A stretch of DNA of 64,000 bases, from the NCBI RefSeq assembly GCF_030652235.1, contig NZ_JAUSBA010000016.1, positions 1 through 64,000 on the forward strand, read 5' to 3'. Both the position numbers and the translations under genes were made by a program. Below, one piece after another: positions 39,749 through 52,829 of the stretch; within the stretch, counting starts at the first letter, position 1; every line of letters begins with the position of its first letter. Origin of the DNA: Cypionkella sp. GTDB lineage: Bacteria; Pseudomonadota; Alphaproteobacteria; Rhodobacterales; Rhodobacteraceae. The notes beneath the pieces were generated by a model, which did no database searches, was not told where the DNA came from, and was given only the letters and a program-made list of their open reading frames with translations.

Positions 39749-40492
39749 CTAAAGCACCGCCTTGATCAGCCCCATCACCGCCAGCCCACCCAGCAGCAAA
39801 ATCGCAAAACGGCGAAAATCCTGCGGATCGGTGTGCAAAAAATGCCGCGATCCCAGCCAATTGCCCAGAAACGTCAGTGGCAAAGCCACCAATGACGCCG
39901 ACAATGTATCCCATGTCACCAGCCCGTGCCACCAATACAAAGGTGCCGAATAGATATCCAGCAGCGGGAAAAACGCGATCAACGTGGCGCGAAACGTCGC
40001 CGCCTGCATTGGTTGTGCTGCAAAGAAAGCCGCCACCGGCAAGCCCCCCATCCCCGGCGCATTGGCCAGACCCGAAACCACGCCAACCGCCAGATTACCC
40101 GCGCCGCGCACCTCAGACCTCAGCCGCCAGCCCGCCAGCAACACGCAACACATCACTAGGATATAGACCGAGATCGCCGCCCGCGCCGCTTCTTCACTGA
40201 TCCCGGTCAACGCCCACAGCCCCAGCGGCAGGCCCACGGCCGCCCCCGCCAGCATCAGCCAAACCCTGCGCCAATCGACATCGCCGCCGATGCCGCGCGC
40301 GGCTTGCAGGCTCATCGCGGTCTCTAGGATCACCACCACCGCCACGAAATGCAGCGGATTGGTGACCACGCCCGAGGCCGCAATCACCATCGCCGAATAG
40401 CCAAAGCCAGAATAGCCCCGGATGAAAGCCGCGACCAGAATGGCGCAACCCATCCAGATCGAGGCACCCAGCCCCAGCTCAAACGGCATCAA
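39749..40492 (-). CDS. tauE: Sulfite exporter TauE/TauZ (TSUP family)
   Basis: A 247-residue membrane protein of the TauE/SafE (TSUP) family with about eight hydrophobic segments and the internal pseudo-repeat typical of the family (FIRGYSGFGYSAMV near the start). Such proteins next to xsc are proposed to export sulfite from taurine degradation. Here both an exporter and a sulfite dehydrogenase are encoded, giving two ways to dispose of toxic sulfite. It overlaps xsc by 4 bp and abuts ackA. Confidence 0.85.
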   Translation of the reverse strand: MMPFELGLGASIWMGCAILVAAFIRGYSGFGYSAMVIAASGVVTNPLHFVAVVVILETAMSLQAARGIGGDVDWRRVWLMLAGAAVGLPLGLWALTGISEEAARAAISVYILVMCCVLLAGWRLRSEVRGAGNLAVGVVSGLANAPGMGGLPVAAFFAAQPMQAATFRATLIAFFPLLDIYSAPLYWWHGLVTWDTLSASLVALPLTFLGNWLGSRHFLHTDPQDFRRFAILLLGGLAVMGLIKAVL

Positions 40493-42261
40493 ACCACCTG
40501 CTTGCGCATATCAGAGGCAGAAATCCCCGCCACCGCCACCGGCTTTTTCATCGCATCGCGGCGGAACGGCTCACCCAGTTCCTGATTGATCATCGCCTCA
40601 ATCAGTGTGGTCTTGCCCGCCTTCTGGTCGATGATCGCTTGGCGCAATGCCGCCGTCAGCTCGTCCATAGTTCGCGCCACAACGCCTTGCAGCCCGCAAG
40701 CCTTTGCAATCCCAGCATAAGACACCTGCGTGTCCAACTCGGTGCCGACAAAGTTATCGTCATACCACAGGGTCGAGTTGCGCTTCTCCGCGCCCCACTG
40801 GTAATTGCGGAACACCACTTGAGTGATCGCAGGCCATTCGCCCCGGCCAATCGCGGTCAATTCGGTCACCGCAATGCCAAACGCCCCATCACCCGAAAAG
40901 CCCACCACCGGCACATCCGGGCAACCGATTTTCGCGCCCACCACCGCAGGCAAACCGTAGCCACACGGCCCGAACAGCCCCGGAGCCAGATATTTTCGCC
41001 CTTGCTCAAACGTCGGATAAGCGTTGCCAATCGCGCAGTTGTTGCCAATGTCCGAAGAAATAATCGCCTCTTTCGGCAAAGCGGCCTGTATAGCCCGCCA
41101 CGCCATCCGGGGGCTCATCCAGTTTGGCTTGTCCGCCCGCGCACGGCTGTTCCATGTGGTGCCCGCGTCGTCGTCCTCATGATCCATCGAGGACAAAGCC
41201 TGCGCCCAAGCGGATTTGGTCTGTGCGATCTTGGCTTTGCGTTCGCTGCGCCCATGGTCACCAGCGGTAGAGGCCAACCGCGCCAAAACCGCCTCGGCGA
41301 CCTTTTTCGAGTCGCCGACAATGCCAACAGTCACCTTCTTCGTTAACCCGATCCGATCAGGGTTAATATCGACTTGGATGATCTTGGCCTGTTTAGGCCA
41401 ATAGTCCAGCGCGTATCCGGGAAGCGTTGAAAACGGATTCAATCGGGTACCCAGACAGAATACCACATCCGCCGCAGAAATCAACTCCATTGCCGCCTTG
41501 CTGCCATTGTAGCCCAAAGGCCCGGCAAACAGCGGGTGGCTGCCCGGAAATGCATCGTTATGCTGATAGCCCACACAGACCGGCGCATCCAACCGCTCGG
41601 CCAATGCCATGCTTGCCGGAATTGCCCCGCCCAGCACCACGCCCGCGCCGTTCAGGATCACCGGAAACTTCGCCGACGACAGCAATTCCGCAGCCGCATG
41701 AACAGCCGCCTCGCCACCCGAAGGCCGCTCAAATTCGACAATCGCGGGCAGATCAATGTCGATCACCTGCGTCCAGTAATCGCGCGGCATGTTGATTTGC
41801 GCAGGCGCGCTCAAACGCTTGGCGTTGATGATCACCCGGTTCAGCACCTCTGCCACGCGGGAAGGATCACGCACTTCTTCCTGATAGGCGACCATATCGG
41901 CGAACAAAGCCATCTGTTCCACCTCTTGGAACCCGCCCATCCCAATGGTCTTATTCGCCGCCTGCGGTGTCACCAACACCAAGGGCGTGTGGTTCCAATA
42001 GGCCGTCTTCACCGCCGTCACAAAGTTGGTAATCCCCGGCCCATTCTGCGCAATCATCATGCTCATCTTGCCGGTGGCCCGCGTGTAGCCATCCGCCATC
42101 ATCCCGCCCGAGCCTTCATGCGCACAGTCCCAAAAGGTAATTCCCGCGCGCGGAAACAGATCGGAAATCGGCATGAACGCCGAGCCGATGATGCCAAACG
42201 CATGCTCAATCCCATGCATTTGCAGCACTTTGACAAAGGCTTCTTCCGTGGTCATCCGCAT
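40489..42261 (-). CDS. xsc: Sulfoacetaldehyde acetyltransferase Xsc
   Basis: A 590-residue thiamine-diphosphate enzyme converting sulfoacetaldehyde + phosphate to acetyl phosphate + sulfite. Length and sequence match Xsc. The N-terminal Pyr domain starts MTTEEAFVKVLQMHGIEHAFGIIGSAFMP-like (shown only in part), the central domain has FCLGTRLNPF, and the C-terminal domain has the cofactor motif GFSGDGAFGIAVTELTA and the NYQWGAEKRN segment. First gene of the run xsc-tauE-ackA-soeABC. I found no TauR-type box directly upstream, so its promoter control is unclear. Confidence 0.95.
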   Translation of the reverse strand: MRMTTEEAFVKVLQMHGIEHAFGIIGSAFMPISDLFPRAGITFWDCAHEGSGGMMADGYTRATGKMSMMIAQNGPGITNFVTAVKTAYWNHTPLVLVTPQAANKTIGMGGFQEVEQMALFADMVAYQEEVRDPSRVAEVLNRVIINAKRLSAPAQINMPRDYWTQVIDIDLPAIVEFERPSGGEAAVHAAAELLSSAKFPVILNGAGVVLGGAIPASMALAERLDAPVCVGYQHNDAFPGSHPLFAGPLGYNGSKAAMELISAADVVFCLGTRLNPFSTLPGYALDYWPKQAKIIQVDINPDRIGLTKKVTVGIVGDSKKVAEAVLARLASTAGDHGRSERKAKIAQTKSAWAQALSSMDHEDDDAGTTWNSRARADKPNWMSPRMAWRAIQAALPKEAIISSDIGNNCAIGNAYPTFEQGRKYLAPGLFGPCGYGLPAVVGAKIGCPDVPVVGFSGDGAFGIAVTELTAIGRGEWPAITQVVFRNYQWGAEKRNSTLWYDDNFVGTELDTQVSYAGIAKACGLQGVVARTMDELTAALRQAIIDQKAGKTTLIEAMINQELGEPFRRDAMKKPVAVAGISASDMRKQVV

Positions 42262-42360
42262 CGGCTTGCTCCTGAAATTCCGTGGTTAAATCTGTTCTAT
42301 CCCTCTGCCCAAGCCTGCCTTAGGGCCAGAGCCTCCCCCGTCATAAGGCCAGTTCTCCAA

Positions 42361-42386
42361 TTTCATCTTGGCGAAAATACTCCGGG
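42361..42386 (-). repeat. Short 3'-end repeat, divergent copy
   Basis: On the minus strand this stretch reads CCGGAGTATTTTCGCC then AAGATGAAA, a variant of the GGAGTATTT element found exactly at 30767-30785 and 44002-44020. It lies behind the tauR stop and before xsc, again a 3'-end position. Confidence 0.4.
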
Positions 42387-42458
42387 TGCCGATTGAGTCT
42401 GCCATTGGTTCAAAGACCCAATCGGCGGGGGCCGGCCCCGGCGGCCGGCTCCAAGCCC

Positions 42459-43919
42459 CTACATCCCCCGAATAGCCCGCCCAATCCGCGCAATCCCCTC
42501 AGGTATCTTTGCTGGAGAAATCGAGGAATACCCCAGCCGATAGAAATTCCGTGGCGCCTGAGCCGGATCAAAAAACGCCCGCCCCGGCTCGATCAACACG
42601 CCTTCCGCCCGCAACCCTTCGGCCAAAACCTCGGCGTCCACCCCAGCAGGCGCGCGCATCCAGAAACTCGATCCGCCAAAGCCGCCCTGCCCGGCCACCG
42701 CCAAGCCATTGTCGCGAATGGCTTCTTCCATCACCTGCCGACGCCTGCGATAGGCATTTCGCATCCGGTTGATCAACGCATCATAATGCCCAAGGCTTAG
42801 AAAATATGCCACCGTGCGCTGAATATGCCCCGGCGGATGCCGCAGCATCATCAGCCGCAACGCCCGCGCCTCGCGGATAAAACTCGCAGGCCCCACCAGA
42901 TAGCCGAGCCGCATCCCCGGAAACACAGACTTGGAAAACGACCCCGCATAGATCACCCGCCCCTCGCTATCCAAAGACTTCAAGGCGGGTGACACCGGCT
43001 TCAGAAACGACATCTCAAACTCGTAATCATCCTCCACAATTACGAAATCCTCGCGCGACGCCGCCTCCAACAGGGCCAGTCGCCGCTCAAGCGGCATCGT
43101 CGCATTGGTCGGGCATTGATGGCTGGCGGTGGTGAACACCACATCCACCCCTTTCGGCAAACGGTCCGGCGGCAACCCATCGGCATCGACATCGACTGAG
43201 ATCACCTCCGTTCCCGAAGGCTCCAACACCCCGCGTAGGCCGGAGTATCCCGGATTCTCCACCACCGCCCGCCGCCCCGGCCCAAGCAGGGTCGCGACTG
43301 TGATCCACAGCGCGTTCTGCGCCCCCAAGGTCAGCAACACCTCATCCTCGCGCGCCGCAATGCCGCGCCGGGGCAGGATCGAACGCAACAGATGCTCGAT
43401 CAAAAGCGGATCATCGCGGTCGTACATATCGCTTGTCAGCGCCGCAAAATCCTTTCGCCCCAGCGCGCGCAAAGCACAAAGCCGCCAGTTCTGATGATCA
43501 AACAAACTCGCATCTGCTTGGCCATAAATGAACGGATAAGCATAATTTTCCCAATCCAGCGGCCGCTTTACCGTGGCGAGATCAGAAAACCGCCGCCCCG
43601 TCAGCCGCGCAAAATCGACGCCCTCAGCCCGCGGTGCCCGCGCCTGCAACTCCGGCGCGCGCGGCGCGTTTTCAGAGATGAAATACCCCGACCGCCCCCG
43701 CGCCATCAGATAGTCCGCACTGACCAGCTCAGCATAAGACAAAGTCACCGTGATCCGCGAAATCCCCAAATGCTCCGCCAGACCCCGAGACGACGGCATC
43801 TTCTGCCCGGCGCGAAACCGGCCCGACAACACGCCTTCCGTCACCATCTGCCGGATACGTTGCTGCAAAGTGCCGCGTACGGCAGGTGGCAGCACAAAGG
43901 CTTCAGCGGGGATCGACAT
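42459..43919 (-). CDS. tauR: MocR/PdxR-type transcriptional regulator TauR
   Basis: A 486-residue MocR regulator. The N-terminal GntR winged helix spans about 15-80 (MPSSRGLAEHLGISRITVTL), joined to a fold-type-I aminotransferase domain with the PLP-Lys region YAGSFSKSVFPGMRLGYLV. In Rhodobacter capsulatus, TauR of this type activates taurine genes. Two matching CTGGAC-type boxes precede tpa and one precedes tauR itself. It sits between tpa and xsc on the same strand, not divergent as in many relatives. Confidence 0.88.
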   Translation of the reverse strand: MSIPAEAFVLPPAVRGTLQQRIRQMVTEGVLSGRFRAGQKMPSSRGLAEHLGISRITVTLSYAELVSADYLMARGRSGYFISENAPRAPELQARAPRAEGVDFARLTGRRFSDLATVKRPLDWENYAYPFIYGQADASLFDHQNWRLCALRALGRKDFAALTSDMYDRDDPLLIEHLLRSILPRRGIAAREDEVLLTLGAQNALWITVATLLGPGRRAVVENPGYSGLRGVLEPSGTEVISVDVDADGLPPDRLPKGVDVVFTTASHQCPTNATMPLERRLALLEAASREDFVIVEDDYEFEMSFLKPVSPALKSLDSEGRVIYAGSFSKSVFPGMRLGYLVGPASFIREARALRLMMLRHPPGHIQRTVAYFLSLGHYDALINRMRNAYRRRRQVMEEAIRDNGLAVAGQGGFGGSSFWMRAPAGVDAEVLAEGLRAEGVLIEPGRAFFDPAQAPRNFYRLGYSSISPAKIPEGIARIGRAIRGM

Positions 43920-43943
43920 TCTGGCCTCATTTCGGCGGCATTG

Positions 43944-43953
43944 CTGGACTTAT
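43944..43953 (+). promoter_or_regulatory. TauR-type box upstream of tauR
   Basis: CTGGACTTAT on the plus strand, 25-34 bp before the tauR ATG. It is identical to one of the two boxes before tpa. Its closeness to the start suggests autorepression or a very short leader. No clear second copy was found beside it. Confidence 0.5.
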
Positions 43954-44001
43954 AGGCCCGCGACCCTAGGGCAAAGTCAAGCGCTCTGGGCCACCCGAAG
44001 G

Positions 44002-44020
44002 GCCTCCGGCGGGAGTATTT
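44002..44020 (+). repeat. Short 3'-end repeat, copy 2
   Basis: GCCTCCGGCGGGAGTATTT on the plus strand, a 19-base exact match to the complement of 30767-30785. It directly adjoins the intrinsic terminator of tpa. Its last eight bases, GAGTATTT, pair with AAATACTC at 44057-44064, so the element lengthens the terminator stem. Confidence 0.5.
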
Positions 44021-44021
44021 C

Positions 44022-44054
44022 AAAAAAGAGCAACTGCAAGGGAATTGCTCTTTT
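44022..44054 (-). terminator. Intrinsic terminator of tpa
   Basis: On the minus strand AAAAGAGCAA (complement of 44045-44054) pairs with TTGCTCTTTT across an 11-nt loop, and the descending arm ends in six T. It lies about 115 bp behind the tpa stop. A classic Rho-independent form; the A/T symmetry means it could also act on plus-strand transcripts. Confidence 0.75.
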
Positions 44055-44166
44055 CTAAATACTCAATTCTGCGCCGCAACCCGCGCGGCACGCCCAAGAA
44101 AAACCCCGCGCCAGTCAAGGCACGGGCTCAATCAGAAAGCACAAATTTTAGATAAATCCGCAGGAT

Positions 44167-45549
44167 TTAGCCAAACACCGTCGTCAGCGCGTTATCAATC
44201 GCCCCGGTGATCTGGTCGATATCATCCGGAGTTGCAATCAGTGCAGGCGAGAGGCACAGCGTGTTGTTCAGCCCTGGAATCGAGCGGTTGGTCATGCCGA
44301 TAATCACGCCCTGCGCGTTGCAGGCGGCCACAACGGCTGCGACTTTCTTTTCGTCCATCGGTTCTTTGGTGACACGATCCGCCACCAATTCCGCACCGCA
44401 AAACAGCCCCTTGCCGCGCACATCGCCGATGACTTTGTGCTTTTCCATCAAGGCGTTGAGGTTATCCAGCACCCGCGCACCCATCTTCAGGGTGTTATCC
44501 AGCAGACCCTCATCCTCGATGATCCGCATGTTCTCCAGCGCCGCCGCAGGCCCCGCCGTGCAGCCACCAAAGGTCGAAATGTCGCGGAAATACGACATGT
44601 GATCGCCCGAATCCTTGAACATGTCGAACACGGCCTCAGTCGTCACTGTGCAGGAAATCGCCGCATAGCCCGAGGCCACACCCTTCGCCATCGTCACGAA
44701 ATCGGGCTTGATGCCATAGTGCTGATAGCCGAACCAAGTCCCGGTGCGGCCCACACCGCAAACCACTTCATCAATGTGCAGCAAGATGTTGTATTTCTTG
44801 CAGATTTCCTGAACCCGCTCCCAATACCCAGTCGGGGGAGTAATAACCCCACCGCCTGCGGTCACTGGCTCCAGCACCAGCGCGCCAATGGTATCGGCGC
44901 CTTCGCGCAAGATCACTTCTTCAATCGCATCCGCCGCGCGCTCGCCGTAGTTCTCAACGTCCCATTGCTTGCGATACTCGAGGCAATGCGGCACCATCAC
45001 GAAGCCATCGGGATAGGGCCCATATTGCGCCGCCCGCTCCAACTGACCCGAAGTCGCAAGCGTGCCAATTGTGGTGCCATGGTAATCCCGCTCGCGGTAC
45101 AGAATTTTCCACTTCTTGCCGCCGTGATGCTTGTGCGCGATCTGGCGCACCATCTTATAGACCTTCTCGTTCGCCTCGGAGCCCGAGTTCGAATAATACA
45201 CCCGGCTTAGCCCCGGCATCTTCGAAATCAGCCGTTCGGCAAACAAAGCCCCCGGGATCGAGCCGCCAACCCCGGCAAAATAGTTCATTTTCAGCAAAGT
45301 ATCGCGCACCGCATTGGCGATGCTTTCGCGGCCATACCCGACGTTCACCGTCCAGACAGCGCCCGACACCGCGTCGATATACTCTTTGCCGCGCGCATCC
45401 CAGACACGCAGACCCTTGCCCTCAACGATGATCCGAGGGTCGACATCCGGGCTTTCATAGCCCTTGTGCTGGCTCAGATGGTGCCAAACATGCGCCTTGT
45501 CGGCGGCGACCACCGCAGAAATATCATTGGCGTTTGTATAGCCGTCCAT
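44167..45549 (-). CDS. tpa: Taurine-pyruvate aminotransferase Tpa
   Basis: A 460-residue class-III PLP aminotransferase: taurine + pyruvate gives sulfoacetaldehyde + alanine. Typical features are NSGSEANEKVYKM (phosphate-binding), the YHGTTIGTLATSG region, LHIDEVVCGVGRTG with the cofactor Asp, and TMAKGVASGYA with the PLP-Lys. Sequence and xsc/tauR neighbours make Tpa much more likely than other omega-transaminases. A ribosome site with GAGG precedes the ATG, two TauR-type boxes lie 77-109 bp upstream, and an intrinsic terminator follows. Confidence 0.94.
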   Translation of the reverse strand: MDGYTNANDISAVVAADKAHVWHHLSQHKGYESPDVDPRIIVEGKGLRVWDARGKEYIDAVSGAVWTVNVGYGRESIANAVRDTLLKMNYFAGVGGSIPGALFAERLISKMPGLSRVYYSNSGSEANEKVYKMVRQIAHKHHGGKKWKILYRERDYHGTTIGTLATSGQLERAAQYGPYPDGFVMVPHCLEYRKQWDVENYGERAADAIEEVILREGADTIGALVLEPVTAGGGVITPPTGYWERVQEICKKYNILLHIDEVVCGVGRTGTWFGYQHYGIKPDFVTMAKGVASGYAAISCTVTTEAVFDMFKDSGDHMSYFRDISTFGGCTAGPAAALENMRIIEDEGLLDNTLKMGARVLDNLNALMEKHKVIGDVRGKGLFCGAELVADRVTKEPMDEKKVAAVVAACNAQGVIIGMTNRSIPGLNNTLCLSPALIATPDDIDQITGAIDNALTTVFG

Positions 45550-45625
45550 GGCTGAACCTCACTTTGCATCGGCCGCACCGCGCGAACCCCGTTTGGCACA
45601 TAATCCGGGAAACCGCCGCTTCTTC

Positions 45626-45658
45626 TTATGTCCAGACCGCATGGGCCGATAAGTCCAG
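45626..45658 (-). promoter_or_regulatory. Pair of TauR-type direct repeats upstream of tpa
   Basis: On the minus strand CTGGACTTAT (45649-45658) and CTGGACATAA (45626-45635) form direct repeats with starts 23 bp apart, about two helical turns. As I recall, the Rhodobacter capsulatus TauR target is a pair of CTGGAC(T/C)TAA-like direct repeats. They lie in the 204-bp divergent promoter shared with the E1-fusion gene at 45754, so they may affect both. Confidence 0.7.
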
Positions 45659-45753
45659 CCGCCTCTATGCCGATTTTGCATAGTCCCATGCTGTCTTCTC
45701 AATATCTTAGCCGGGCTGTTTCGGCTAAAAATGCGGCAAATCGGGAGAAGATC

Positions 45754-47934
45754 ATGGGCCGCTCTGTCATCGTGCACGAAAACTTCCTGCGCCGAATAGC
45801 CGCCCGCGACTTCCCCGAGGGTGCCGCCCCCGCTGGCCCGCTCACCCCCGAAGACGCCGTGGCGATTTACCGCGCCGCCTGCACCAGCCGCGCGCTGGAC
45901 CGCACCTCGCGCGAAATGCAGCGCCAAGGCACCGGATTCTACACCATCGGCTCGTCCGGCCACGAGGGGCTGGCGGCGGTTGCCGTCGCCCTGCGCCCCA
46001 CCGATATGGCCTTCCTGCACTACCGCGATGCTGCTTTTCAAATCGCCCGCGCGGGCCAAGTGCCGGGGCAAACCATCGCTTATGACATGCTTTTGTCCTT
46101 CGCAGCCTCTTCTGATGACCCGATCTCGGGCGGTCGCCACAAGGTTCTGGGCAGCAAAGCGCTGAACATCCCGCCGCAAACCTCGACCATCGCTTCCCAC
46201 CTGCCCAAAGCCGTCGGCGCTGCCTATGCCATTGGCGCTGCCAAGAAAAACCGCCCCGATCACGCCCAGCTTCCAGATGATGCCATTATCTACTGCAGCT
46301 TTGGCGACGCCTCGGCCAACCATTCCACCGCGCAAGGGGCGTTCAACGCTGCGGGCTGGACGGCTTACCAAAACCTCCCCCTGCCGCTGCTGTTCGTCTG
46401 CGAGGACAACGGCATCGGCATCTCGACCAAAACCCCCACCGGCTGGATCGCCAATTCCTTCAAACACCGCCCCGGCCTGAAGTATTTCCACGCCAACGGC
46501 CTTGATATCTACGAGACATATAAAGTCGCGCAAGAGGCCGCCCAGTATGTCCGCACCCGCCGCAAACCCGTCTTCCTGCACCTGAAAACCATCCGCCTCT
46601 ACGGCCATGCGGGCGCGGATATGCCCACCACCTATCTGCCGCGCGAGGAGGTCGAAGCCGAAGAAGCCCATGATCCCCTGCTGCACATGGTCCGCCAACT
46701 CGACCAAGCCCAGGCCCTTCCCGCTGCCCAAGCGCTTGAGCTCTACACCGATACCGCCCGGCGCGTCACCCGCATCGCAGCCGAGGCCACCACCCACCCC
46801 CACCTGAAAACCGCCGCCCAAGTCATGGCCGCCATCATCCCGCCCCTCCGCCCGTGCAAACCTAGCAACGGCCCCAGCCCCGATGCCCGAGCCGCCGCTT
46901 TCGGCAGCGACCTGAAGCAGATGGACGAACCGCAAATCATGTCGCGCCTGATCAACTGGGCGCTGACCGATCTGATGCTGACCCACCCCGAGATCGTGAT
47001 GATGGGCGAAGACGTGGGCCGCAAAGGTGGCGTCTACGGCGTCACCCAAAAGCTGACCCAACGCTTCGGCCCCTCGCGCATGATCGACACCCTGCTGGAT
47101 GAGCAAAGCATCCTCGGCCTTGCCATCGGCATGGCGCAAAACGGCTTCATCCCGTTCCCGGAAATCCAATTCCTCGCCTATCTGCACAACGCCGAGGATC
47201 AGTTGCGCGGTGAAGCCGCCACCCTGCCGTTCTTCTCCAACGGCCAGTATTCCAACCCAATGGTGCTGCGCATCGCGGGCCTTGGCTATCAAAAGGGCTT
47301 CGGCGGCCATTTCCACAATGACAACTCGGTTGCCGTGCTGCGCGACATTCCCGGCCTGATCCTTGCCGTGCCCTCAAACGGCGCCGACGCGGCCAAAATG
47401 CTGCGCGAATGTGCCCGGCTTGCCCGCGAAGAACAGCGGCTCGTGGTGTTCTTGGAGCCCATCGCCCTCTACCCGATGCGTGACCTGCACAGCGACAAAG
47501 ACGGCCTCTGGATGCAACGCTACCCCGCCCCCGATCAAAGCATTGCCTTCGGTGAAGTTGGCCAGCAAGGTGACGGCACCGACCTCGCCATCGTCACCTT
47601 CGGCAACGGAAATTACCTTTCGCATCAAGCACTTCCGGCCATAAATTCATCCGGCATCAAGACCCGCATCATCGACACTCGCTGGCTTTCTCCACTGCCC
47701 GTCGAGGCCCTTCTCGCCGCCACCGCGCCTTGCAAAAACATCCTGATCGTCGATGAAACCCGCCATTCCGGCGGCGTCGCCGAGGCGCTGATGGCGCTGT
47801 TCCACGAAGGCCCCCCCACCAATCTCGCCCGCCTGACGGCAACTGACAGCTTCATCGCCACCGGCCCCGCCTATGCCGCCACCATGCCATCAGCCGCCAG
47901 TATCACCGCCGCCGCCATGGAGCTTTGCAAATGA
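45754..47934 (+). CDS. Fused 2-oxoacid dehydrogenase E1 alpha-beta (thiamine-diphosphate enzyme)
   Basis: A 726-residue fusion of E1 alpha and E1 beta of a branched-chain 2-oxoacid/acetoin dehydrogenase type. The alpha part (about 1-370) has the thiamine-diphosphate motif from GDASANHS (184-191) to EDNGIGIS (217-224). A Pro/Ser-rich linker follows around 360-385. The beta part (about 390-726) has EDVGRKGGVYGVT, RMIDTLLDEQSILGLAIGMA and GGHFHNDNSVA. ATG 45754 has GGGAGAAG upstream. No E2 acyltransferase or E3 gene is near. The ATGA overlap with the malonyltransferase-like gene suggests a joint task. Substrate unknown. Confidence 0.85.
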   Translation: MGRSVIVHENFLRRIAARDFPEGAAPAGPLTPEDAVAIYRAACTSRALDRTSREMQRQGTGFYTIGSSGHEGLAAVAVALRPTDMAFLHYRDAAFQIARAGQVPGQTIAYDMLLSFAASSDDPISGGRHKVLGSKALNIPPQTSTIASHLPKAVGAAYAIGAAKKNRPDHAQLPDDAIIYCSFGDASANHSTAQGAFNAAGWTAYQNLPLPLLFVCEDNGIGISTKTPTGWIANSFKHRPGLKYFHANGLDIYETYKVAQEAAQYVRTRRKPVFLHLKTIRLYGHAGADMPTTYLPREEVEAEEAHDPLLHMVRQLDQAQALPAAQALELYTDTARRVTRIAAEATTHPHLKTAAQVMAAIIPPLRPCKPSNGPSPDARAAAFGSDLKQMDEPQIMSRLINWALTDLMLTHPEIVMMGEDVGRKGGVYGVTQKLTQRFGPSRMIDTLLDEQSILGLAIGMAQNGFIPFPEIQFLAYLHNAEDQLRGEAATLPFFSNGQYSNPMVLRIAGLGYQKGFGGHFHNDNSVAVLRDIPGLILAVPSNGADAAKMLRECARLAREEQRLVVFLEPIALYPMRDLHSDKDGLWMQRYPAPDQSIAFGEVGQQGDGTDLAIVTFGNGNYLSHQALPAINSSGIKTRIIDTRWLSPLPVEALLAATAPCKNILIVDETRHSGGVAEALMALFHEGPPTNLARLTATDSFIATGPAYAATMPSAASITAAAMELCK

Positions 47935-48950
47935 GAACCGCCGTCCTGATTTGCCCCGGTCGTGGCAGCTATACCAAGACCGAACTGGGCTCCCTTACCC
48001 GTTTCCCCGACCGCATACTGCTGGCGCATTTCGACGCCCGCCGCACGGCCCTGAACCAAGAAACCCTGACCGCCCTCGACAGCGCGCCCACTTACTCCGT
48101 CTCAAAACACACAAGGGGCGACAACGCCTCCGCCCTGATCTATGCCTGCACGCTGGGCGACGCACTGTCCCTGCAAAACGTTGAAATCACAGCCGTAACC
48201 GGCAATTCGATGGGCTGGTATTCCGCCCTCGCCTGTGCCGGCGCGCTCACGCCCGAAAACGGTTTTGAAGTCGTCAACACCATGGGCACGTTGATGCAGC
48301 AAAGCCTGATCGGCGGCCAGATCATTCACCCCTTCATGGATGAAAACTGGCACCGCAACCCGAGCCGCCGCGCCGAACTTCTCGCGATAGTGGCAGACAT
48401 CAACACCCGCCCCGACCACATCCTAAGCTTGTCGATCGACCTTGGTGGTATGTTGGTCCTCGCAGGCAACGAATCCGGCCTGAAAGCCTTCGAGGCAATC
48501 GTCTCGCCCGAGCAATCCCGCTTCCCGATGCGTCTGGCCAATCACGCCGCCTTCCACACCGCCCTGCAAGCCCCTGTGGCCGCCCAAGGCCGCGCAGCCC
48601 TGCCTGCAACCCTGTTCCAACAACCGCAAAAACCGCTGATCGACGGGCGCGGCCAGATCTGGTGGCCCGGCTCAACCCGCACTGCCGATCTTTACGACTA
48701 CACCCTCGGCCACCAAGTCACCGAGCCCTACGATTTCACCGCCGCCATCCGCACATGCGCCCGCGAATTTGCCCCCGACCTGTTCATCATCGCGGGCCCC
48801 GGCACCACACTTGGGGGTGCTGTCGCGCAAAGCCTGATCCTCGCCCACTGGCAGGGCCTCTCCAGCAAAGCAGATTTTCAATCGCGCCAAGCCGCCAATC
48901 CGCTGCTGATCTCAATGGGGCTGCCCGAGCAACGCAGCCTCGTCACCTGA
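47931..48950 (+). CDS. Malonyl-CoA:ACP transacylase-like (FabD-type) acyltransferase
   Basis: A 339-residue protein with the FabD/acyltransferase fold. The nucleophile Ser93 lies in TGNSMGWYSAL (FabD has GHSLG), and His205 in RLANHAAFH aligns with the FabD catalytic His region. The Arg that selects malonyl groups is not obvious to me, so the acyl group may not be malonyl. It overlaps the E1 fusion by ATGA and is followed by an intrinsic terminator, so the two genes form a complete operon. It is unlikely to be the housekeeping FabD, since no fab genes adjoin. Confidence 0.8.
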   Translation: MRTAVLICPGRGSYTKTELGSLTRFPDRILLAHFDARRTALNQETLTALDSAPTYSVSKHTRGDNASALIYACTLGDALSLQNVEITAVTGNSMGWYSALACAGALTPENGFEVVNTMGTLMQQSLIGGQIIHPFMDENWHRNPSRRAELLAIVADINTRPDHILSLSIDLGGMLVLAGNESGLKAFEAIVSPEQSRFPMRLANHAAFHTALQAPVAAQGRAALPATLFQQPQKPLIDGRGQIWWPGSTRTADLYDYTLGHQVTEPYDFTAAIRTCAREFAPDLFIIAGPGTTLGGAVAQSLILAHWQGLSSKADFQSRQAANPLLISMGLPEQRSLVT

Positions 48951-48970
48951 GCAAAGCGTTAACACCAAGT

Positions 48971-49000
48971 AAACAAGGCCCCGCTAAGGCCTTGTTTTTA
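48971..49000 (+). terminator. Intrinsic terminator of the E1-fusion operon
   Basis: AAACAAGGCC (48971-48980), loop ccgctaa, GGCCTTGTTT then more T (48988-48999). Nine to ten base pairs followed by a T-run, 20 bp behind the stop at 48950. Confidence 0.85.
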
Positions 49001-49033
49001 CACGCACCGGCTCTTTGTCCACGCGTGGACACC

Positions 49034-50251
49034 TCACCGCGCCGCGATATGCCCCGCCAAATAATCGGCATCATGCCAGACCCCCCAGATGAACGGAGAC
49101 GCCCGCCGAGACAGCCACGGCAGCCCGAGAAAATACAGCCCCGACACCCCCGACACCCCCCGATCATGCGCAGGCCGACCCTTTTCATCGAAAGCCTCAA
49201 CCTTCAACCAACCATAATCCAGCCCAAACCCGGTCGCCCAAATGATCGACGTCACCCCCGCCGCCTTCAAATCCAGCGCCAAAATCGGATGCGTCACACA
49301 ATCCGGGTCTGGCCCAATCAGTCGCGCCTCCGGCTCCAACGGCATATCCAACCCCTCAGCCGCCGCGTAAGCATCCGCCAGGTCCAGCGTCGCGAGATAA
49401 TTTTCATCCCCGCGCCGGATGTTCTCCCCCAGATCCCCGCCCACCTGCAACACCCCGTCGCGATATGCCCCAACACGTCCCAGCAAGGTCATCCCCCCCG
49501 CCGCCAGCCGTCGAAAATCCACCGTATGCCCGCCCCGCGCTCCGGAAACCGCGATCGTGATATGCTCGGTCCCCGGCGCCTTCACCCGTGCATCCCACTG
49601 CCCCAAAACCCCCAGCCACCAGACAAAATCACGGCCCCGGTACGCGCGCGGCGGCCGATCATGCGGCCCAACCGACAGGTAAACCTTCTTGCCCGCCCGC
49701 ATCAATTCGTCGGCGATCTGCGCCCCCGAAGACCCCGCCCCCACCACCAGCACCGCCCCCTCTGGCAACTGGCCCGGATTGCGATAGGCATTGGAATGCA
49801 TCTGCACGAGGCCAGCACTGTCCGGCACCAAGGTCGGGATCAACGGCTTCTGAAACGGCCCCGTCGCCACCACCACATTGCGCGCCTCAACCCGGCCCGC
49901 CGAGGTTTCGGCCACAAACCCCTCTCCCGATGGCTGCAACGACGTCACCTCGACCCCACAGCGGATCGGCGCTGCGATCTTCTCGGCCACCGCCTCAAAA
50001 TACGCCGCAATCTGTTCTTTTGGCGCGAAAGCATCCGGGTCGATTTCATCAAAGGTCAGGATCGGGAAGCGGTCATGCCAAGCCGGTCCATTCGCCACCA
50101 ACGAATCCCAGCGCTCTGATCGCCACCGCTCGGCAATCCGGTGCCGCTCCAGCACCAGATGCGGCACCCCGCGTTCCCGTAACTGTGCGCTCATCGCCAG
50201 CCCCGCCTGTCCGCCGCCAATGATCAGCGTGTCAATATGTTCAACGGGCAT
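49034..50251 (-). CDS. Flavin-containing monooxygenase-like NAD(P)/FAD oxidoreductase
   Basis: A 405-residue single-component flavoprotein. It has an N-terminal FAD motif IIGGGQAGLAMSAQL, an internal second Rossmann motif VVGAGSSGAQIADEL (about residue 170) for NAD(P)H, and an ATG-type segment VVVATGPFQKP. The set is that of FMO/CzcO-like monooxygenases acting on amines, ketones or sulfur compounds. It stands alone on the minus strand between plus-strand genes. Given the methylated-amine genes next door, an N-oxygenation role is possible but unproven. Confidence 0.8.
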   Translation of the reverse strand: MPVEHIDTLIIGGGQAGLAMSAQLRERGVPHLVLERHRIAERWRSERWDSLVANGPAWHDRFPILTFDEIDPDAFAPKEQIAAYFEAVAEKIAAPIRCGVEVTSLQPSGEGFVAETSAGRVEARNVVVATGPFQKPLIPTLVPDSAGLVQMHSNAYRNPGQLPEGAVLVVGAGSSGAQIADELMRAGKKVYLSVGPHDRPPRAYRGRDFVWWLGVLGQWDARVKAPGTEHITIAVSGARGGHTVDFRRLAAGGMTLLGRVGAYRDGVLQVGGDLGENIRRGDENYLATLDLADAYAAAEGLDMPLEPEARLIGPDPDCVTHPILALDLKAAGVTSIIWATGFGLDYGWLKVEAFDEKGRPAHDRGVSGVSGLYFLGLPWLSRRASPFIWGVWHDADYLAGHIAAR

Positions 50252-50478
50252 CGCGGCGTCCTTTTCTGTGGCTGGCCCCTGGGGCGGTTGCGTTTGGTGT
50301 AGGCCAGACGCAGGCCGTCAGAAATAAGGATTTCACGCAGCACTGATTAGGCTGCACCCAAAGCCACCTCGCAGATTGGCTTAACCCCCGCCTAAGCAAA
50401 GCTGAGCAAAACACTGATAGCCTGCAGCGCCGCTTTCGGGCAAAGATCAGTCATCAAGCCCTCAGCCGCGAGCACGCC

Positions 50479-51612
50479 ATGAACCAGCATCACAGCCTCA
50501 CCCCCGCCGCCGAGTTGCACGCCAATGTCTCGGTGCCGTTTACCCAAGCCCATGCGATGCCGAAATCGCTCTACACCAGCGATGCCTTTCTGGCGCAGGA
50601 GCAGAAACACATCTTCGCGCAAGACTGGCTTTGTGCGGGCCGCGCAGAAACCCTCGCCAATCCCGGCGATTATCTGACCATGCAGATCGCAGGCGAGCCG
50701 GTGATCGTGCTGCGCGACCGCGACGGTGCCATCCGCGCGATGTCCAACGTCTGCCGCCACCGGATGTCCACCCTGCTACAAGGCCGTGGCAACACTCGCG
50801 CCATCGTCTGCCCCTATCACGCCTGGACCTATAACCTTGACGGCAGTTTGCGCGGTGCCCCCGCTATGGCACAGAACGAAGGCTTCTGCAAAACCGACAT
50901 CGCGCTGCCGCAAATCCGCTGCGAGGTCTGGCTGGGCTGGATCATGGTTTCATTGAACCCAGAGGCCGCTTCTCTCGCTACCAGCTTGCAAGGTGTCGAG
51001 AATCTGGTCGGTTATCTTGATATGTCGACCTATACCGAAACCTTCCGCGAGGAATTTCGCTGGGCGACCAACTGGAAGGTTCTGGCCGAGAATTTCATGG
51101 AATCCTACCACCTGCCGGTTTGCCATTCTGGCACCATCGGCGGCTCGTGCGATCTCAATCTGATGACCTGTCCAGAGGGCGATCCGGCCTTCAACTACCA
51201 CTGGATCATCAAGAATGACACCGTGCCGCTGGCGCTCGCGCACCCCAGCAACACCACGTTGCAAGACGATCAGCGCCGCATCACTTGGCTTTTGGCGATC
51301 TACCCATCGCTGCTGATCACCCTGACGCCGGGTTATTTTTGGTATCTGTCGCTGACACCCGACGGCCCCGGCCATGTCAACGTGCTGTTCGGCGGTGGGA
51401 TGTCCGCCGACTGGATCGCCGACCCCGACGCGCAGACCCATCTCGCCACCGTCAAGGCGCTGCTGGATGACGTGAACATCGAAGACAAAGGTTGCACCGA
51501 GAAAGTCTATCGCGGCCTGTTGTCCCGCATGGCTAGCCCCGGCCCGCTGTCGCATCTAGAGCGGCCAAATTTTGAATTCGCCCAATATCTCGCCAGCCGC
51601 ATCCCGGCCTGA
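50479..51612 (+). CDS. Rieske non-heme iron oxygenase, alpha subunit
   Basis: A 377-residue ring-hydroxylating-type oxygenase. The Rieske [2Fe-2S] ligands are Cys92, His94 (CRHR) and Cys111, His114 (CPYH). The catalytic domain has NWKVLAENFMESYHLPVCH, with the two iron-binding His. Relatives of this size include stachydrine, carnitine and glycine-betaine monooxygenases that remove or split N-methyl groups. The following RidA, DUF1028 and TMADH-like genes support an N-demethylation pathway. No dedicated reductase gene is adjacent. Confidence 0.88.
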   Translation: MNQHHSLTPAAELHANVSVPFTQAHAMPKSLYTSDAFLAQEQKHIFAQDWLCAGRAETLANPGDYLTMQIAGEPVIVLRDRDGAIRAMSNVCRHRMSTLLQGRGNTRAIVCPYHAWTYNLDGSLRGAPAMAQNEGFCKTDIALPQIRCEVWLGWIMVSLNPEAASLATSLQGVENLVGYLDMSTYTETFREEFRWATNWKVLAENFMESYHLPVCHSGTIGGSCDLNLMTCPEGDPAFNYHWIIKNDTVPLALAHPSNTTLQDDQRRITWLLAIYPSLLITLTPGYFWYLSLTPDGPGHVNVLFGGGMSADWIADPDAQTHLATVKALLDDVNIEDKGCTEKVYRGLLSRMASPGPLSHLERPNFEFAQYLASRIPA

Positions 51613-51642
51613 CTCGAAAACGCTCCAACCCAGCAGGACAAA

Positions 51643-52059
51643 ATGACCATCACCCGCTACCGTAAATTCAATACCAAAGTCACCTACCCCGAGCAGAACC
51701 TTGACAACGACCTCTGCCATCTCGTCGCCACCCGTGGCGGCACCACGCTGTATTTCCGTGGCGCTTGCCCGCAAGACCTGGATACCGCCGAGAACCTCGG
51801 CAGTCACGATCCCGCTGAACAAACCCATAAAGTCATGAGCAATATCAAACAGATGATCGAAGAAGCTGGCGGGCGGATGGAGCATCTGGTCAAGCTGGTG
51901 GTCTACCTCACCGACGTGCGCCACCGCGAACCCGTCTACCGCGTGATGGGCGAATATATTAAAGGCGTGCATCCGGTTTGCACGGGGCTGACGGTTGTGG
52001 CCCTCGCCCGACCCGACTGGCTAGTCGAGATTGACGCAACTGCCGTGATCCCGGACTAA
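51643..52059 (+). CDS. RidA/YjgF-family enamine/imine deaminase
   Basis: A 138-residue RidA-fold protein. RidA proteins hydrolyse reactive enamine/imine intermediates. The C-terminal VHPVCTGLTVVALARPDWLVEIDATAV segment (given here in part: LTVVALARPDWLVEIDA) and YLTDVRHREPVY are family-like. The usual catalytic Arg region is shifted (ALARPDW). It lies 30 bp after the Rieske gene, so it may clear imines made during demethylation. That is inference. Confidence 0.85.
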   Translation: MTITRYRKFNTKVTYPEQNLDNDLCHLVATRGGTTLYFRGACPQDLDTAENLGSHDPAEQTHKVMSNIKQMIEEAGGRMEHLVKLVVYLTDVRHREPVYRVMGEYIKGVHPVCTGLTVVALARPDWLVEIDATAVIPD

Positions 52060-52114
52060 TCCAAACCTATCAATCCCTAATACTTTCACCTTGGTGTAAT
52101 TACTCCACAGGGGT

Positions 52115-52135
52115 CCGGGGGTTTGAAACCCCCGG
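52115..52135. terminator. Hairpin between RidA and DUF1028 genes
   Basis: CCGGGGGTTT-g-AAACCCCCGG is a perfect 10-bp inverted repeat without a T-run, 56 bp behind the RidA stop and 22 bp before the DUF1028 start. It could be a partial terminator or mRNA stabiliser inside the operon. Confidence 0.5.
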
Positions 52136-52157
52136 CACTTGGCCAAAAGGATGACAT

Positions 52158-52829
52158 ATGACCTTCTCCCTAATCGCCCGCTGCGCCAAAACCGGACAAT
52201 TTGGCATGGTGATCGCGTCCTCCTCCCCCGCCGTCGCCGCCCGCTGCGCGCATGTGCGGGCGGGCGTAGGGGCGGTGGCCAGCCAGAATATCACCGACCC
52301 GGCTTTAGGCGCGCTGCTGCTGGACGAACTGGCCAAGGGCAAATCGGCATATCTGGCTTTGGCGGACATCACCGTAGACCGTCAACACATTGATTACAGA
52401 CAACTTCTGGTGATAGACGCTCAAGGAAAAACCGCCATCCACTCTGGCACCCAAGTCCTTGGCATCTGGGGCGAAGTCCAAGGCAAAGACTGCGCCGCAG
52501 GCGGCAATCTGCTGGCCAATCCGACCATCCCAGTCGCAATGATAGGTGCGTTTGAAGGCGCAAAAGGCCATCTCGGCGACCGTCTGCTAGCAGCCCTCGC
52601 CGCAGGTCTGGCGGCAGGCGGTGAGGCTGGCCCTGTGCATTCCGCTGGCATGAAAATTGCCGACACACTCGACTGGCCCTTGGTCGATCTGCGCATCGAC
52701 TGGTCCGATACCCCGATCCAAGCACTCGAAGCCGCTTGGCAAATCTACCGCCCGCAGATGGCCGCCTATGTGCAGCGCGCGCAAGACCCCACCCAGGCCC
52801 CGTCTTACGGTGTCCCCGGCGACGAATAG
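52158..52829 (+). CDS. DUF1028 family protein
   Basis: A 223-residue DUF1028 protein of the Ntn-hydrolase-like fold. The mature-type N-terminus MTFSLIARCAKTGQFGMVIAS, GVGAVASQNITDP and AGGNLLANP are characteristic. Members occur often beside RidA and amino-acid or amine catabolic genes, but the reaction is not established. AAGGATGACAT precedes the ATG. It lies in the run Rieske-RidA-DUF1028-LysR-TMADH-like. Confidence 0.88.
   Translation: MTFSLIARCAKTGQFGMVIASSSPAVAARCAHVRAGVGAVASQNITDPALGALLLDELAKGKSAYLALADITVDRQHIDYRQLLVIDAQGKTAIHSGTQVLGIWGEVQGKDCAAGGNLLANPTIPVAMIGAFEGAKGHLGDRLLAALAAGLAAGGEAGPVHSAGMKIADTLDWPLVDLRIDWSDTPIQALEAAWQIYRPQMAAYVQRAQDPTQAPSYGVPGDE

Follow-up and report, generated by a model that had tools for sequence, protein, structure and literature searches.

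Human DHTKD1 is an E1 component (E1a) that works on a shared E2 core (E2o), and PMC10003691 describes this E2 as common to another complex. A similar arrangement is proposed here for a two-gene operon from a 64,000-nucleotide stretch of a Cypionkella sp. contig (NZ_JAUSBA010000016.1, positions 1 to 64,000; the window), which encodes a 726-residue fusion of the alpha and beta chains of a 2-oxoacid dehydrogenase E1 (45754..47934, plus strand) and a 339-residue FabD-fold serine acyltransferase-like protein (47931..48950, plus strand), called MT in the following. The two genes overlap in an ATGA stop/start (47931..47934, plus strand), and coordinates, lengths and overlap are as the first-pass annotation of this DNA had them; the 726-residue form of the E1 is preferred over a longer frame of 768 residues because homologues align from residue 1. 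We regard the pair as a real, conserved variant of the 2-oxoacid dehydrogenase system, best read as the 2-oxoadipate dehydrogenase of lysine catabolism: the operon likely provides the E1 of such a bacterial enzyme together with a dedicated acyl-handling partner, and the assignment to the lysine pathway is fairly strong. The proposed reaction and an E2 common to another complex are what the pair would share with DHTKD1, whereas its E1 is an alpha-beta fusion of the pyruvate dehydrogenase (PDH) or branched-chain 2-oxoacid dehydrogenase (BCKDH) type and comes with a FabD-fold partner. DHTKD1 we take to be an E1 of the 2-oxoglutarate dehydrogenase (OGDH) type, and the human system presumably operates without any FabD-fold protein.

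A second enzyme described to act on 2-oxoadipate is HglS, which converts it to D-2-hydroxyglutarate according to PMC7286885. Excerpts of PMC4334477 give functional annotation to lysdh and aasadh of R. pomeroyi. In PMC5653290, a Phaeobacter study, 2-oxoadipate could not be detected and the term 'dehydrogenase complex' is absent, and passages of PMC9602339 and PMC9007349 contain no mention of oxoadipate. The pair itself, earlier put forward as an undescribed module, was indeed not found described among the papers listed by searches on the pathway and the pair, which covered mostly open-access texts without supplements. If our reading is true, a step of lysine catabolism that these literature passages leave without a named enzyme in these bacteria gains one, and a role is given to a family of at least 564 relatives. 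If MT furthermore stands in for an E2, the picture of acyl release by 2-oxoacid dehydrogenase complexes changes as well.

Conservation and lysine-catabolism context of the pair

From the at least 564 MT relatives found by scan, the best 80 were used for neighbourhood counts covering five genes upstream and four downstream, with genes called by codon usage (the E1 of locus L076 was miscalled); this caller replaced an earlier one based on open reading frame length that had missed MT in 29 of 81 GC-rich loci. In 79 of the 80 loci, MT is immediately preceded by an E1 fusion, cut by the contig edge in a few; the exception is L036, where MT starts 30 bases into its contig. Of 79 called pairs, that of the window included, 73 show a gap of −4 between both genes. 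When nine window proteins (40489-52829) were scanned with Pfam, none gave a domain of an E2, an E3, a carrier or a ketosynthase, which agrees with the first-pass description of a module that joins an E1 to an acyltransferase-fold protein without local E2 or E3. That description was to fall if the pair lacked conservation in other genomes, and the survey found the pair conserved.

True MT relatives were rare in an even sample of the class, where 5 of 385 genomes carried one (at least 334 bits) and the next match, at 38.7 bits, was at the level of ordinary FabD-like proteins. In 292 genomes drawn evenly from the order, MT was detected in 67 (E≤1e-40) and E1 in 98 (E≤1e-100); all 67 MT genomes carry the E1, and 31 of the 98 E1 genomes are without MT. 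Plasmid records name MT 'ACP S-malonyltransferase' in 3/3 and E1 'thiamine pyrophosphate-dependent enzyme' in 3/5 cases.

The recurrent gene order around the pair consists of a divergent LysR gene, an aminotransferase, a glutaryl-CoA dehydrogenase (GCDH), E1, MT and an aldehyde dehydrogenase, followed by either a lysine-dehydrogenase-like (LYSDH-like) or a pipecolate-oxidase-like gene. Among the 80 loci, LysR and an aldehyde dehydrogenase of the piperideine-6-carboxylate dehydrogenase (P6CDH) cluster were each found near the pair in 54, GCDH in 34, the LYSDH-like gene in 29, the aminotransferase in 26 and the pipecolate-oxidase-like gene in 12; GCDH or the aldehyde dehydrogenase is present in 59 loci and the complete set in 10. 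Identities were checked on one representative per cluster. The aldehyde dehydrogenase scores above the curated P6CDH model (823 versus 730 bits) and also matches solved aminoadipic semialdehyde dehydrogenases, while the GCDH matches a solved glutaryl-CoA dehydrogenase with an E-value of 8e-185, ranking behind an entry that bears the name acyl-CoA dehydrogenase. The aminotransferase is aspartate-aminotransferase-like, and the flavin-dependent (FAD) oxidase has L-pipecolate oxidase as its nearest match, at a score under the cutoff of that model (414 versus 600). The LYSDH-like representative matches a putative saccharopine dehydrogenase and 3abi, an entry called uncharacterized that we take to be a lysine dehydrogenase.

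Such a neighbour set would carry lysine to 2-oxoadipate and, further on, glutaryl-CoA to crotonyl-CoA. As the conversion of 2-oxoadipate to glutaryl-CoA is the sole step between those covered by the neighbouring genes, it is left for the E1, and the route would run from lysine through aminoadipate semialdehyde, aminoadipate, 2-oxoadipate and glutaryl-CoA to crotonyl-CoA. Across the order sample, P6CDH as defined by its curated model occurs in 45 of the 67 MT genomes versus 28 of the 225 others (P=1e-17), at a distance to MT of at most 200 bases in 14 and at most 10 kb in 19 of the 45. In one genome, the P6CDH frame (G406:C2:904215-905627) holds two in-frame stops beside an MT free of stops, and is possibly part of a decaying lysine operon or the product of a sequencing error.

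HglS, in turn, was detected in 11 of the 292 genomes. None of the 11 has the E1 and none of the 98 E1 genomes has HglS (one-sided Fisher P=0.010), so the two never occur together in the sample. When only the 73 P6CDH genomes are considered, 46 carry E1, 6 carry HglS, none carries both and 21 carry neither (one-sided Fisher P=0.0017). HglS resembles the E1 in its proposed context, using 2-oxoadipate and lying 60-1353 bases from P6CDH in 6 genomes, and differs from it in belonging to the unrelated family PF07063 and in forming a different product. The pattern looks like a replacement of the enzyme at the same step, seen in small numbers and in related genomes.

The E1 fusion and its proposed substrate

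By its Pfam domain order (E1_dh, Transket_pyr, Transketolase_C) the E1 belongs to the alpha2beta2 type of PDH and BCKDH, and its best matches among solved proteins are the alpha and beta chains of these enzymes (beta half, E 4e-40). Domains and thiamine diphosphate (ThDP) residues are shared with the Thermus (1um9), human (1dtw) and 1w85 E1 structures: G184, D185, N219, H285, E450, H519 and H521 are invariant across 141 homologues, and we assume them to form the ThDP/Mg site and to include the catalytic Glu and His. A structure was predicted with a pLDDT of 90.9. Searched as a whole with Foldseek, the fused model ranks transketolases first, and single PDH/BCKDH E1 beta chains are matched with a TMt of up to 0.92. 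In contrast to the solved enzymes, the E1 described here is fused, has no adjacent E2 and stays far below the curated pyruvate-specific PDH-E1 models of NCBIfam (117.9 versus 411 and 116.1 versus 321 bits); its 17 bits against the 764 of the curated OGDH E1 model likewise place it outside the DHTKD1/OGDH type by score. It also features family-specific basic residues, H89, H129 and K130, which are invariant in the family, whereas the BCKDH chains of Thermus and human and the two other E1 fusions of the host genome have different residues there; these three are candidate contacts of the far carboxylate of the substrate.

With an intact ThDP site and the described gene context, the E1 would decarboxylate 2-oxoadipate on thiamine diphosphate and, in a second step, reductively glutarylate a lipoyl domain. 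This domain is probably borrowed from a housekeeping complex, because none is encoded beside the E1. Among the genes called at L184, L185 and L220-L231, a regular expression for lipoyl motifs flagged none, which is a weak test. Housekeeping E3 would then reoxidise the lipoyl group, and glutaryl-CoA would pass on to GCDH.

The association of E1 with GCDH extends beyond loci with MT and beyond the order. Of the 31 MT-less E1 genomes in the order, 21 have GCDH within 1 kb upstream of the E1. A sample of the phylum yielded the E1 in 29 of 398 genomes (E≤1e-110), 7 of them from the family of the window, and 20 of the other 22 loci were examined: a GCDH-like gene of 48-73% identity lies upstream of the E1 in 12, comprising 7 within about 0.3 kb (68-73%) and 5 at 1.4-6.5 kb (48-52%), the latter GCDH-like by identity alone, while MT is present in 10 of the 20. 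A Shewanella plasmid shows the order GCDH-E1-MT (GCDH 73%), and in Legionella adelaidensis E1 and GCDH (51%) overlap and MT is missing; around a Nonomuraea E1, neither GCDH nor MT was found within 7 kb. Outside the order, P6CDH is present in 17 of 25 E1 genomes. The link between E1 and GCDH is hence the deepest one, and MT is accessory to it. Comparing E1 residues of loci with and without MT revealed a single weak difference, Leu/Ile at position 537. The MT-less loci of the order are L143-L173; in several of them, the E1 is followed by an ABC transporter set.

Several observations weigh against this assignment. None of the lysine genes, LysR aside, is found nearby in 18 of the 80 loci, and in the window itself the pair has no adjacent lysine genes, these being scattered over the genome. 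GCDH is missing upstream of the E1 in 10 of the 31 MT-less loci and in 8 of the 20 phylum loci, and eight of nine MT genomes without P6CDH that were fetched (9 of 22 such genomes) have no GCDH within 1 kb. Inside the order, P6CDH is found in only 1 of the 31 MT-less E1 genomes versus 45 of the 67 with MT, and there is consequently no obvious source of 2-oxoadipate in the former. Outside the order, P6CDH occurs in 7 of the 13 genomes whose E1 has MT next to it versus 8 of the 10 whose E1 does not, a comparison made on the loci read, with MT judged at the locus and the remaining two of the 25 genomes left out. The notion of a tie between MT and the P6CDH branch itself, prompted by the numbers inside the order, failed outside it and was dropped. 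The 21 P6CDH genomes with neither E1 nor HglS may point to a further 2-oxoadipate enzyme or route in the order. On a FastTree phylogeny of 141 E1s, MT presence changes 15 times, at least 11 of these being forced by well-supported branches, so MT is not needed everywhere. The samples furthermore include related genomes, which are not independent.

The 18 loci without lysine genes nearby, together with the 52 of 98 E1 genomes that have no P6CDH and the relationship of the E1 to those of PDH and BCKDH, are what would be expected if the E1 acted on another 2-oxoacid such as 2-oxoglutarate or a branched-chain acid, and its connection to GCDH and lysine were indirect. We consider this unlikely, as GCDH adjacency recurs in lineages far apart and HglS and the E1 are mutually exclusive among the genomes sampled. 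The first-pass annotation had instead thought of an acyl-transfer or carboligation system and named sulfoacetaldehyde among the substrates to try, which corresponds to a module for carboligation or carrier loading that has no relation to lysine, perhaps in sulfoacetaldehyde or taurine metabolism. Indeed, the genes on one side of the pair in the window, whose Pfam domains were scanned, are presumably taurine genes, and the same presumed genes adjoin the E1 in L007-L009. Among all 81 loci, however, they flank the E1 directly in the window and these three alone, an arrangement confined to close relatives, whereas the neighbours that recur are GCDH and genes of lysine catabolism, and we hold this explanation to be highly improbable. 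A 2-oxoadipate dehydrogenase E1 hence remains our preferred assignment.

The FabD-fold partner

MT is predicted with confidence to adopt the fold of FabD (pLDDT 96.5; VIA Z of roughly 32-34 against solved FabD), and profile comparison found no relation between it and the E1. Of the two catalytic residues named in the first-pass annotation, Ser93 was right and is invariant in 102 homologues, whereas His205 (101/102) is not the histidine of the dyad; this is His209, which aligns with FabD His201 and is invariant in the 102. MT thus shares fold and Ser-His dyad with FabD and MdcH, but scores below the cutoffs of both (48.6 versus 260.9 and 52.5 versus 297.9 bits) as well as that of Pfam Acyl_transf_1 (16.2 versus 32.7 bits). 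Arg117, the malonate-binding residue of E. coli FabD according to passages of PMC10054515 and PMC11775670, from which the residue roles are taken, is replaced by Met118 and Gln11 by Arg11, both invariant in the 102 homologues, and the GHS motif of FabD reads GNS with an invariant Asn before the Ser.

In the least certain step of the proposed mechanism, MT would take the glutaryl group onto Ser93 and hand it over to CoA, acting in trans in place of the E2 catalytic domain. That the lipoyl-to-CoA acyl transfer normally done by this domain is carried out by an unrelated FabD-fold serine acyltransferase is a tentative proposal, in favour of which the gene overlap speaks by suggesting a role of MT in the E1 reaction itself. 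The same pathway and E1 would also be compatible with MT being an editing hydrolase, comparable to the acyl hydrolases of trans-acyltransferase (trans-AT) polyketide synthases, that removes glutaryl or other trapped acyl groups which this E1 loads onto lipoyl domains of E2s unable to hand them to CoA, for which the repeated loss of MT and its absence from nearly a third of the E1 genomes (31/98) fit an accessory repair enzyme. In the passages of PMC11775670, the missing malonate Arg is diagnostic of acyl hydrolases such as PksD and PedC in trans-AT systems, the position before the Ser often lacks the His that transferases have there, and the oxyanion residue is strictly Gln or His. MT has the FabD fold of these hydrolases, lacks the malonate Arg and has Asn before its Ser as they may; yet its invariant Arg11 takes the place of the oxyanion Gln or His, so MT does not match them, and its context is lysine catabolism. 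Judged from the residues, Arg11 fits neither transferases nor trans-AT hydrolases, and an invariant Arg near the Ser might point to an acyl group with a negative charge, for instance glutaryl. An editing function seems to us a somewhat doubtful though serious alternative, and we would place acyl transfer slightly ahead of hydrolysis.

MT could also move glutaryl units from CoA to an acyl carrier protein, for biotin formation via BioZ or for another carrier-bound product, as its FabD fold might imply. Passages of PMC7645780 describe that alphaproteobacterial BioZ takes glutaryl units from lysine catabolism, but also that BioZ uses glutaryl-CoA itself, with no need for a glutaryl-bound carrier protein. 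With MT tracking the E1 in every MT genome of the order, we rate this role as quite improbable.

The host genome and flanking features of the window

In the host genome, GCDH (87%) is encoded beside a LysR gene on C29 and P6CDH on C3. Lipoyl-type and E2 genes are present elsewhere in the genome and, as read by eye, include the OGDH E2, PDH genes and two further pairs of E1 fusion and E2. Two very similar operons of an E1 fusion (663 residues) and a lipoyl E2-like protein are found at L189 6186-9403 (C58) and L190 6671-9873 (C69).

Downstream of MT, the strong terminator reported in the first pass corresponds to a palindrome (48971..48997, no strand assigned) between two convergent genes, a possible two-way terminator. 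The palindrome is present, but a terminator score is obtained on the minus strand only, and terminator-like sites in the region show no excess over shuffled sequences (3 versus a mean of 3.5). On the side of the pair facing away from the presumed taurine genes, an FAD oxidoreductase is encoded. The presumed taurine genes (40489-45549), which code for a ThDP enzyme, a MocR-type regulator and a class III aminotransferase, lie divergent to the E1 in the window and in L007-L009 and have in common with it a 204-base intergenic region that may co-regulate them. Genes for a Rieske oxygenase, a RidA-like protein and a DUF1028 protein (50479-52829) adjoin the operon; the set is seen again in L007, and part of it in L008.

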